Shown here piece after piece: positions 60,730-64,000 of a DNA stretch of 64,000 bases (the first letter of the stretch is position 1; the number at the start of each line of letters is the position of its first letter). Position numbers and translations under genes: made by a program. Below the pieces are notes generated by a model that saw nothing but the letters and a program-made list of their open reading frames with translations, was not told the origin of the DNA and did not search any database. This DNA comes from Nitrospira sp. (GTDB lineage Bacteria; Nitrospirota; Nitrospiria; Nitrospirales; Nitrospiraceae), in contig JAEURX010000038.1 in the NCBI GenBank assembly GCA_016788885.1, forward strand, positions 62,001-126,000. The letters run 5' to 3'.

Positions 60730-62349
60730 TCATGGATCCCCTTCCGGCATCATCCAATCCGTCAATGGTGAAACGTACGGCGGATTTTGGGTCAGACCGA
60801 CAACTTTTGATGCCACATGTCCCAAACGACGCTGCGCTCCAAACGTCACGGAAAACCCTGCACCGGTGTCCTGGTCGAGAAATGTCTCCAGCGCTTCAAT
60901 GACCGCATGACGACTGAGGTCTCGACCAGCCCGCTTGAGTGATTCGCCCAGCACCGATACGGCACCCTGGCTCATACGAGCAAAGCCGACACTTGTTACG
61001 GTAGCCTGCTCACTCAACGCCCGCAACGATGTCAGCTCCCGCTCCGTAGGAGGGTCGATCGGGGTTACGAGCACTACCCGCGAGCGAAGACCGGACGGAA
61101 CGGTATGAGCGTGTGCGCCCACCATGCCGATCGCACTCAGCACAATCGGCGAAAGTTCCCGACGGGCAAGTTCATTGGCCATCGAGACAAGACCTTCTCC
61201 GTCTCCTATGAACAGGACGGCATCGATTCCCTGCTGTTCCAATTGCGTGACAAGAGCCACAACATCCTGGCGCCCTTTTGAATATTCATAATTCATGGCT
61301 AGATTCAAGCCATGATGCCGAACTTGCGCCAGCGCCCCCCGCAACGCCTCGCCGTTTCCTCCCCCGTTCCTATGCACGAGTGCCAAACGAGGCTGTGATG
61401 TGCCCGTGAGGGCCTTCGCTCGGGACGCAAAAAAATCGAGCAATGATCGGAATTGAAGATCGAAACCAGGCAAGGCATAAAATAGGGAAGGGCTAGGCGG
61501 ATCATATAGCTGGGGGGATTGAGTCAGAGGAAAAATCGAGGGGATATGGTACTGCTCCAGGCGCTCACGGGCGCCTACCTCTCCCGCCGGCTCAAAGCTT
61601 CCCACGAGGGCGAAGACGTGATGTGTCTCGATGAGGCGAGCAACGGCCTGCTCCGTGAGTGCAGGCTCCCCCCGGGAATCTTCCACAATCAACTCGATGT
61701 GCCGGCCGTACACACCCCCCTGCTCGTTCAGACGCTGTATAGCCCCTCTCAAGATCGCGGCCACATCCTGGCCTATCCGTGCAAGCGGCCCCGTCAAGGG
61801 GAGCGCCGCTCCGACCGTGACAGCAGTCGCGGTCACTCCGAGATCCGTGTCCGACTCCCCTCCGATCCGGTTCAAATACGCGATCACCCCTGCCAATTGG
61901 TCGGAGGTTAGCTGATACCGCGGCATACTCGGGTGTAACGCATGGTGGGACGCATCAATGCCTTGCGTGATGGCGTTCGCCAGCCCCTCGTCCGTGTATC
62001 CGGGACGAGCCCCTCCGGCACTGACACCTTCCCGCGCCTGCCTGAGCGCCAGTGGCGTGAGAGGAGGGACTCGCAGCCCCCCCTCTTGCGTTCCCTGTCC
62101 ACGGTGGCCATGACACCCCGCGCACCGAAAAAGAGTCGGCGGCAGGCCTCCCTTGACTCCCTCCAAGCTCACGCGAACATGATCCGCATGTCCGTCCGCG
62201 CCATACTGATAGAAATCGCGCCCCTGCCGCTCCTGTGGCGTGAGCGGATCGATCCATGCCGCGGTCGAAGGCCGCACCATACAACACACCACCATGAACA
62301 GGCCGACGGTAACACAGACTCTGGGCACTCGGAGCAGTCGACGAGCCAT
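60730..62349 (-). CDS. Cytochrome c fused to a periplasmic substrate-binding (branched-chain amino acid ABC-type) protein
   Basis: 539 residues. A signal peptide (about 1-31) is followed by a monohaem cytochrome c domain (about 35-165) with CAGCH (C76, C79, H80) and a likely Met ligand in HPSMPRYQL. From about 170 to the end runs a type-I periplasmic-binding-protein domain with VGAALPLTGPLARIGQD, LIVEDSRGEPALTEQAVARL and VFALVGSFEPAGE, as in LivJ-type receptors. No ABC permease or ATPase is adjacent. The fusion suggests electron transfer linked to, or gated by, a small periplasmic ligand; this is inference. It lies ten bases after the SCO1-like gene. Confidence 0.82.
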   Translation of the reverse strand: MARRLLRVPRVCVTVGLFMVVCCMVRPSTAAWIDPLTPQERQGRDFYQYGADGHADHVRVSLEGVKGGLPPTLFRCAGCHGHRGQGTQEGGLRVPPLTPLALRQAREGVSAGGARPGYTDEGLANAITQGIDASHHALHPSMPRYQLTSDQLAGVIAYLNRIGGESDTDLGVTATAVTVGAALPLTGPLARIGQDVAAILRGAIQRLNEQGGVYGRHIELIVEDSRGEPALTEQAVARLIETHHVFALVGSFEPAGEVGARERLEQYHIPSIFPLTQSPQLYDPPSPSLFYALPGFDLQFRSLLDFFASRAKALTGTSQPRLALVHRNGGGNGEALRGALAQVRHHGLNLAMNYEYSKGRQDVVALVTQLEQQGIDAVLFIGDGEGLVSMANELARRELSPIVLSAIGMVGAHAHTVPSGLRSRVVLVTPIDPPTERELTSLRALSEQATVTSVGFARMSQGAVSVLGESLKRAGRDLSRHAVIEALETFLDQDTGAGFSVTFGAQRRLGHVASKVVGLTQNPPYVSPLTDWMMPEGDP

Positions 62350-62359
62350 GATGCAGGAC

Positions 62360-62941
62360 CTATTGAGCGACGTCAGAGGGAATGGGGTCGGGTCGGCCGA
62401 CGGCAGCGTCGAGGCGTTCCATTACCATCGGAACAGAGGCCTCGCCGTACAGGCGCGTCCATGTCCCAGCGGCTTCGTTTCCAATGACCACGATGGCCGG
62501 ATGGTCCGCTTTGTTCGATGCGAAGACCTGCAGGGATGCCAAAATGCGGGCGACATCTGCCGGGGTGCCGGTGAGGAAGCGCCATCCCTTCCCCGCGCCA
62601 AATTGCGCGGCATAGGCTTTGAGTCGGGACGGCCGGTCGTGGACGGGGTCGACAGTCACAGATAGTAGGGTAACCGGTTGGTCCGTTGCTCGTACCCGGT
62701 GGTACACACCGCTCAGCAACCCGGTTGCCGCAGGGCAACTGGTGTTACAGGTCGTGTACATGAAGTTGATGACCACAATGTTCCCCTTCACCAAATCCTT
62801 ATAGAAGCGGTGCGCGATACCGTCTTGGTCGATCACCTCGACATCGGGAATGGAAGGCAGGGTGACATCGGACCAGGCCGGCGCGGCAACCGCGCTACAC
62901 AACCACACCATCATCATGACGGCAACGTTCCTCAGCCTCAT
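62360..62941 (-). CDS. SCO1/SenC-like copper thioredoxin-fold protein
   Basis: 193 residues from ATG 62941 (GAGGG nine bases upstream); ATG 62950 adds three residues, and longer frames overlap the neighbouring gene. A signal peptide or anchor precedes the thioredoxin fold. The SCO copper ligands are present: C65 and C69 in YTTCNTSCP and H147 in NKADHPAIVV. SCO proteins deliver copper to the CuA centre of terminal oxidases or act as thiol reductases. No oxidase gene is in view; the next gene is the cytochrome/substrate-binding fusion. Confidence 0.85.
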   Translation of the reverse strand: MRLRNVAVMMMVWLCSAVAAPAWSDVTLPSIPDVEVIDQDGIAHRFYKDLVKGNIVVINFMYTTCNTSCPAATGLLSGVYHRVRATDQPVTLLSVTVDPVHDRPSRLKAYAAQFGAGKGWRFLTGTPADVARILASLQVFASNKADHPAIVVIGNEAAGTWTRLYGEASVPMVMERLDAAVGRPDPIPSDVAQ

Positions 62942-62954
62942 CAAGCACATGCCC

Positions 62955-64000
62955 TCATGGCTTTCCCGCCTCTCCCAGAGCCTCCGGAGAAGACGACATC
63001 GGTGGCCCGACCGTGAGCAGAACGGGACGGCTATCTGCAAAACGCACCTGCCTGGAGGATGATTGCACCAGCACCCGATATTCTCCCGCATGCGGAAAAG
63101 ACTGTGTGATCACATAGTGTCCGGCGTGTTCTTCTTTGGCCCACCGTCGTTGTTGCCATGTGCCCGGCGGCTCGAAGAGCAATACCTGCACGTCATGGAG
63201 TCCCGTGACCGGCTCCTGAGTATCGGCATCCAGCAAGTCGAACGACAAGGAGGCTGGAACGTGCGCCGGCACGAGTTTGCCCTCAAACCGCACCTGAATA
63301 CGTCCCGGTCGAGCGCTCGGCTCCCCGGCCGTGGACATCGGGGATTGCTGAACCGCCACCTGAAAACAGTGGGACACGCGAGGTTGGTCAAGTAACACGG
63401 GAACGTCGAATCGACCGGAGTGCGGAAGCGTCACGGTCGCCTGGTACACCCCGGGAGTCAGCTCTTTCAGGCTTCGATCCAGCACGAGGATGCCACGCGG
63501 CATCCGACGGTAATTCGAAAAGGTCCCCGTCGGAGCCATCATGCCTTCCTGATAATAATGGAGCGTCGCATCCGGTGCATTGGCGATCATCACGGCATTG
63601 CCTTCGGGTGTCGCGACAATCATAGGGGCAACACCCAGTTCCTGCGGCGCGGCACTCGGCGCTTGCCGTCCGGCCTGCACATCCAGTGGAGCCAGCTTTC
63701 CCTTCCGAGCCTCACGGAGATCGAGGAGGGTGAACTTTTCCGATTCGATGCCACGCACATAGGCATACCGTTGCGTGAACACGATTTGATCCGGATCTTT
63801 GACCACCTTCGTGGTGGCCGTCACCGTGTTCGTGGCGGTATCGATGATGGACAGGCTGCTCTCGACTTGATTGACGGCAAAGACAAAGCGCCCCTGAGGC
63901 TCCACAGCCAAGGCGACGACGCCCGGCGCCAGGGACATCTGAGCGACAGGGCGATGTGTCGAGGGATCAATCGCCACAATCTCCGAGCCATTGACCCCTC
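62955..64000 (-). CDS. YncE-like beta-propeller protein with C-terminal FixH/YtkA-like domain, 5' part outside window
   Basis: About 347 C-terminal residues are visible; the frame stays open to base 64000, so the true start lies outside. Blade-like units (VALAVEPQGRFVFAVN, SLSIIDTATNTV) resemble surface/periplasmic YncE propellers. From about residue 190 of the visible part an Ig-like domain follows (FEGKLVPAHVPASLSFDLLD, FPHAGEYRVLVQSSSRQV) similar to FixH/YtkA domains found with copper and oxidase proteins. It precedes the SCO1-like gene by 13 bases, implying a common periplasmic process. Confidence 0.7.
   Translation of the reverse strand, partial: GVNGSEIVAIDPSTHRPVAQMSLAPGVVALAVEPQGRFVFAVNQVESSLSIIDTATNTVTATTKVVKDPDQIVFTQRYAYVRGIESEKFTLLDLREARKGKLAPLDVQAGRQAPSAAPQELGVAPMIVATPEGNAVMIANAPDATLHYYQEGMMAPTGTFSNYRRMPRGILVLDRSLKELTPGVYQATVTLPHSGRFDVPVLLDQPRVSHCFQVAVQQSPMSTAGEPSARPGRIQVRFEGKLVPAHVPASLSFDLLDADTQEPVTGLHDVQVLLFEPPGTWQQRRWAKEEHAGHYVITQSFPHAGEYRVLVQSSSRQVRFADSRPVLLTVGPPMSSSPEALGEAGKP

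Follow-up and report, generated by a model that had tools for sequence, protein, structure and literature searches.

The two-domain gene analyzed here has a described counterpart in Pseudomonas putida GB-1, where the mnxG operon comprises mnxG, a gene for a 40-residue YVTN beta-propeller, two consecutive SCO1 genes, a gene combining a substrate-binding protein (SBP) with cytochrome c, and SurA (PMC11409713, Table 4). The SBP/cytochrome c gene (IMG 641547574) is annotated there as "amino acid/amide ABC transporter substrate-binding protein, cytochrome c domain" (PMC11409713), the same operon has been drawn with an "ABC" gene (PMC8218464, Fig. 2 legend), and we have found no use of the GB-1 locus tags 2448-2452 in the literature. 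The combination of both domains in MofC-like proteins was pointed out in 2017 (PMC5566968, section 13), and MnxG has been reported from Nitrospira MAGs of a drinking-water filter (PMC12070406). Thus, neither the architecture nor the occurrence of MnxG in Nitrospira is new (PMC11409713, PMC5566968, PMC12070406), and the present analysis adds a link of the fusion architecture to Nitrospira MnxG, together with an analysis of the binding domain.

The window (the whole analyzed stretch of 64,000 nucleotides, positions 62001-126000 on a Nitrospira sp. contig of 154,798 bases) contains the fusion as an ORF of 539 aa with an ATG start (Table 1). A preliminary description of this DNA, made from the sequence alone, had proposed a secreted single-haem domain followed by a complete LivJ-like binding domain and had suggested a domain search, which recovered both halves by Pfam: Cytochrom_C at residues 73-160 (E 5.7e-7) and Peripla_BP_6 at residues 177-506 (E 8.9e-36), each exceeding its Pfam gathering cut-off. 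The N-terminus resembles a Sec signal peptide (judged by eye), and the protein has a single CxxCH motif (CAGCH). The residues C76, C79, H80 and M142 are invariant in an alignment of 15 sequences, with Met142 located 62 residues past the haem His and the equivalent Met found 57-63 residues past it across 17 homologues. In the AlphaFold2 model (mean pLDDT 82), residues 163-539 form a complete type-I periplasmic binding protein (PBP-I) fold with structural matches (VIA-align) to 4n03 (Z 35.5), to 4n0q with leucine (Z 32.2) and to 2liv (Z 29.7). This analysis confirmed the gene product as a predicted secreted monohaem cytochrome c joined to a PBP-I fold.

Table 1. Features of the fusion gene and its upstream neighbors (positions in the window)
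Feature	Position	Strand	Basis
Cytochrome c - periplasmic-binding-protein fusion (MofC-like)	60730..62349	-	ORF, Pfam, 17 homologues in MnxG clusters
Putative signal peptide, ~residues 1-32 (STAA/W)	62254..62349	-	By eye; same pattern in homologues
Class I cytochrome c domain, ~residues 38-165	61855..62238	-	Pfam Cytochrom_C and AlphaFold2 model
Haem attachment motif CAGCH, residues 76-80	62110..62124	-	Sequence
Met142, predicted distal haem ligand	61924..61926	-	Invariant in 15 sequences
Type-I periplasmic binding (LivJ-like) domain, residues 173-539	60733..61833	-	Peripla_BP_6, structural match to 4n03
SCO1/SenC copper chaperone	62360..63091	-	SCO1-SenC 1.2e-19; conserved neighbor
672 aa YVTN beta-propeller and YtkA protein, 3' part	62955..64000	-	Gene continues to ~64973
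MnxG-family multicopper oxidase, 2005 aa	~64928-70945, beyond window		NCBIfam match and copper motifs

The fusion is the last gene of an operon encoding, in this order, a 527 aa protein, a 2005 aa MnxG-family protein, a 672 aa YVTN beta-propeller protein with a YtkA domain as its C-terminal part, SCO1 (with its gene 10 nt upstream of the fusion) and the fusion itself; the genes 3' of it (rpsF, ssb and fatty-acid synthesis genes, as read from translations) are functionally unrelated. The oxidase was overlooked in the preliminary description because its gene begins just past the window edge. The 2005 aa protein has no match in Pfam; in NCBIfam, it hits NF041487 (manganese-oxidising multicopper oxidase MnxG) in three stretches (938 bits, E 7.6e-282), and it retains four copper-ligand motifs (HxH, HxH, HxxHxH and HCHxxxH...M), the type 1, 2 and 3 copper-ligand motifs reading HIH, HDH, HVFHLHAH and HCHLYPHFAQGM. 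Judged by its sequence, it is an MnxG-family homologue that falls short of the equivalog, and its substrate at this locus is uncertain since 938 bits are far under the equivalog cut-off of 3100 bits. In the window organism, it would probably act on Mn(II) but may use another metal. The 527 aa protein encoded upstream of it (L017:16986-18569 (-), approximately window position 70986-72569, beyond the window) has no match in Pfam or NCBIfam; it is conserved in several Nitrospira MnxG clusters and has a homologue in a Roseomonas plasmid operon.

No ABC transporter genes were found near the fusion, as had been pointed out before, and a search of the genome's contigs did not reveal a cognate LivHMGF-type transporter: the sole LivH/LivM-type permease pair is located on another contig (C40), adjoining a different SBP match. 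An uptake SBP with a stray haem was ruled out by this lack of a cognate transporter. A PQQ-dehydrogenase-type SBP system, considered because the neighboring propeller resembles TIGR03866, was also ruled out, as TIGR03863 gave no match to the fusion (NCBIfam, E 0.1).

The positions that we take to be the amino-acid contacts of LivJ (Ser79, Thr102, Tyr150, Tyr202 and Glu226) are occupied by Pro, Gln, Gly, Asp and Ile, respectively, in the fusion (alignment to E. coli LivJ), with the backbone contacts at S79, T102 and E226 (here P, Q and I) not kept. These columns are mostly variable across the 17 fusion homologues; at the Tyr202 column, most Nitrospira members keep the Asp, which is part of a GDGE-like motif. 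Since all five checked contact residues are replaced and their columns mostly vary, the LivJ amino-acid site is lost, which is the kind of finding (a lost pocket) that the preliminary description had named as speaking against its own proposal. Elsewhere in the PBP-I group, ligands such as urea, amides, aromatic acids or fatty acids are held by different residues. The replacements argue against amino-acid binding by this domain, and another ligand may be bound instead.

Beyond the pocket, the domain as a whole is reduced in some lineages. In G122, G232 and three alphaproteobacterial relatives, it has shrunk to 263-311 aa, below Pfam detection. The pooled C-termini of the alphaproteobacterial and two Nitrospirota relatives still match a PBP profile (hhalign probability 96) and thus look like a reduced PBP domain; in G122, where the AlphaFold2 model is poor (pLDDT 55), a PBP fold is suggested by the hhalign profile match only. 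The loci with a shrunken binding domain, all with the cytochrome kept, are L063:2723-4123 (-), L068:16535-17974 (+), L092, L093 and L094. A Pfam match confined to the first lobe is observed in G228 and G015 (L098:8953-10494 (+) and L023:10084-11559 (+)), suggesting that the second lobe has partly decayed even within the same bacterial family. In 69 of 78 pairs, conservation is stronger in the cytochrome c domain than in the PBP domain.

These observations bear on the idea of a ligand-gated electron carrier, in which the PBP domain would bind a molecule other than a branched-chain amino acid and its closure would alter haem potential or docking. Such gating would be in keeping with the complete PBP fold in Nitrospira, with the lack of a transporter for the fusion, with the Asp retained at the Tyr202 position in most Nitrospira members, and with the existence of transporter-free PBP-I sensors, one of which (AmiC) is among the structural matches. 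We nevertheless consider it unlikely, because the LivJ contacts are replaced, most of these positions being variable, and because the receptor domain degenerates in several lineages in which the operon persists; conservation, moreover, is not focused on the PBP domain.

The distribution of the fusion across nitrite oxidisers, a check that had also been proposed, amounts to 7 of the 29 genomes of the genus Nitrospira. A phylum-wide profile search detected it in 14 of 396 sampled genomes (15 matches, one of which, in G156, spans the PBP part only). All 17 fusion-carrying Nitrospirota genomes examined have an MnxG-family gene in the same cluster. A single-genome accident, raised earlier as a potential objection, or an assembly artefact is ruled out by the occurrence of the fusion in 17 genomes, in several of them on long contigs. 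The one-strand order MnxG > propeller > SCO > fusion is found in 11 of the 17; with two SCO genes (MnxG > propeller > SCO > SCO > fusion), the order in G150 equals that of the P. putida GB-1 operon. The fusion of G145 and G268 lies nearby on the opposite strand, and in G321, G360 and G364 it directly follows MnxG and carries an additional N-terminal region. An ordinary-sized PhsA/CueO-like multicopper oxidase lies between the fusion and the propeller in G145 (L027:11004-13157 (-)). Several MnxG clusters in Nitrospirota (G117, G219, G026, G029) have no fusion.

Outside the phylum, the order MnxG > hypothetical protein > SCO > cytochrome recurs on alphaproteobacterial plasmids (Sphingobium, Roseomonas, Shinella), the hypothetical protein after MnxG being a propeller homologue in the Roseomonas operon. 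The cytochrome proteins of these plasmid operons (400-436 aa) have no Pfam binding domain; they were found by a plasmid search with MnxG as a query, and the search with the whole fusion returned only unfused SBPs. Indioceanicola carries MnxG, the propeller and a pair of SCO genes; a cytochrome was not found nearby.

Another option is that the fusion together with SCO1 serves as a redox or copper-handling chaperone in maturation of the oxidase rather than as an electron carrier. This would agree with the invariable location of the fusion in a multicopper oxidase cluster, with SCO1 adjoining it in 12 of 17 genomes, and with a CusF-like copper-binding domain in the additional N-terminal region of the fusion in order-level relatives (G321). 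We regard it as quite unlikely, given that the window protein has no CusF domain and that the invariant haem motif and distal Met suggest electron transfer. The fusions of these order-level relatives (913-954 aa; L095:8291-11038 (+), L096:5197-8061 (-) and L097:7575-10316 (+)) are located directly 3' of an MnxG-like gene, and their extra N-terminal region, with the CusF-like domain shown in L095, precedes the cytochrome c and binding domains.

Overall, the fusion is rather likely an accessory c-type cytochrome, i.e., a redox or assembly partner, of an MnxG/MofA-type operon, with the PBP fold used for docking. This reading is based on its invariable location in an MnxG-family cluster, on the MnxG match and copper motifs of the oxidase, on the stronger conservation of the cytochrome c domain, on the retention of the cytochrome where the PBP domain shrinks, on the lost LivJ contacts, on the lack of a cognate transporter and on the need for cytochrome c maturation genes in Mn oxidation by Pseudomonas (cited in PMC11409713); the invariance of the haem motif and distal Met suggests electron transfer. 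MofC was reportedly proposed in 2000 as an electron-transfer protein in Mn oxidation, as a putative role. The divergence of the fusion correlates with that of the propeller (r 0.95), SCO (0.94) and MnxG (0.77), all of these values being inflated by common descent. In the proposed mechanism, SCO1 would load copper into the MnxG-family oxidase, which would draw electrons from a metal that is probably Mn(II). The cytochrome domain would either swap electrons with the oxidase or relay them to the periplasmic chain. For the PBP-like domain, we infer that its uptake role is gone and that it would act mainly as a docking/assembly module placing the haem beside the oxidase or the propeller. The existence of several Nitrospirota MnxG clusters without a fusion weakens the partner-cytochrome reading. 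Known MnxG-type oxidases hand electrons to O2, and a cytochrome partner is therefore not obligatory.

A more far-reaching variant would turn the fusion into an energy-conserving outlet, relaying Mn(II)-derived electrons from the oxidase into respiration so that some Nitrospira gain energy from Mn oxidation. Seven of the 29 Nitrospira genomes carry the fusion together with MnxG, which is compatible with it, as are the implication of mnxG-bearing Nitrospira MAGs in Mn removal by sand filters (PMC12070406) and the consideration that Mn lithotrophy based on a multicopper oxidase would require a periplasmic carrier such as cytochrome c (PMC9040806). The presence of the operon in Pseudomonas, which PMC9040806 in general classes with the nonlithotrophic Mn oxidisers, and on alphaproteobacterial plasmids makes this variant improbable in our estimation; we have found no literature on the physiology of operon-carrying Nitrospira. 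Still further along this line, the PBP domain might capture a soluble metal chelate or an organic ligand of Mn and the haem relay the oxidase electrons to the respiratory chain, yielding a second, manganese-based energy source for some nitrite-oxidising Nitrospira, a combination that we consider very unlikely.

The partner-cytochrome reading also touches on a long-standing observation in Pseudomonas. Work going back to 1998 (de Vrind et al. and Caspi et al., cited in both PMC11409713 and PMC11930936) ties the cytochrome c maturation (ccm) genes to Mn oxidation in this genus, and they are required for it, according to the citation in PMC11409713; we have found no paper naming the cytochrome behind it. 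A fusion-type gene underlying the ccm phenotype is a candidate link, and the mnxG-operon cytochrome, whose gene stays with MnxG homologues even in distant phyla, may be the cytochrome that has long been missing, for which it is a concrete candidate. For Nitrospira, the fusion bears on whether the MnxG-carrying strains, suspected Mn removers in drinking-water filters (PMC12070406), oxidise Mn, and on whether Mn electrons reach a cytochrome rather than O2 alone.

With respect to novelty, the fusion gene is already known to accompany genes of giant copper enzymes associated with Mn oxidation and is not a new stand-alone sensor. The earlier statement that no characterized example exists holds insofar as we have found no functional or biochemical study of the SBP-cytochrome c architecture, and does not hold for the architecture as such, which is on record (PMC11409713, PMC5566968). 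The notion of an isolated small-molecule-gated carrier of a novel kind is not supported: the gene is already known from mnxG/mofA clusters, and the LivJ amino-acid contacts of its product are lost.

A side-by-side comparison with known systems places the fusion as follows. It shares with LivJ/LivK the PBP-I fold (Z ~30-35 over ~340 residues) and differs from them in the attached haem domain, the lack of transporter genes and the replaced amino-acid contacts. The amide receptor AmiC of Pseudomonas aeruginosa likewise has a PBP-I fold without a transporter (Z 30-31) but, unlike the fusion, resides in the cytoplasm, where it binds AmiR, and lacks a haem. The GB-1 protein (IMG 641547574), as likened by its description, has the same two domains, and both genes follow mnxG, a YVTN beta-propeller gene and SCO1. 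The two loci differ in the number of SCO1 genes (two in GB-1, one in the window locus) and in the SurA-like gene of GB-1, no counterpart of which adjoins the fusion; the window locus, in turn, encodes a propeller protein with a YtkA domain and the 527 aa protein upstream of MnxG. The mof operon includes a peptidyl-prolyl isomerase, MofB, and none was found adjoining the fusion. MofC and MofC-like proteins of mofA/ompB clusters (Leptothrix discophora, Geobacter GSU1397, iron oxidisers; PMC5566968) have a cytochrome c domain, as does the fusion, and the homologues in iron oxidisers are described with an explicit periplasmic binding domain, again as in the fusion (PMC5566968; likened by description). 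Finally, MofC-like genes neighbor a gene for a giant multicopper oxidase, often with SCO1 also present (PMC5566968), which resembles the clustering of the Nitrospira fusion with MnxG and SCO1.
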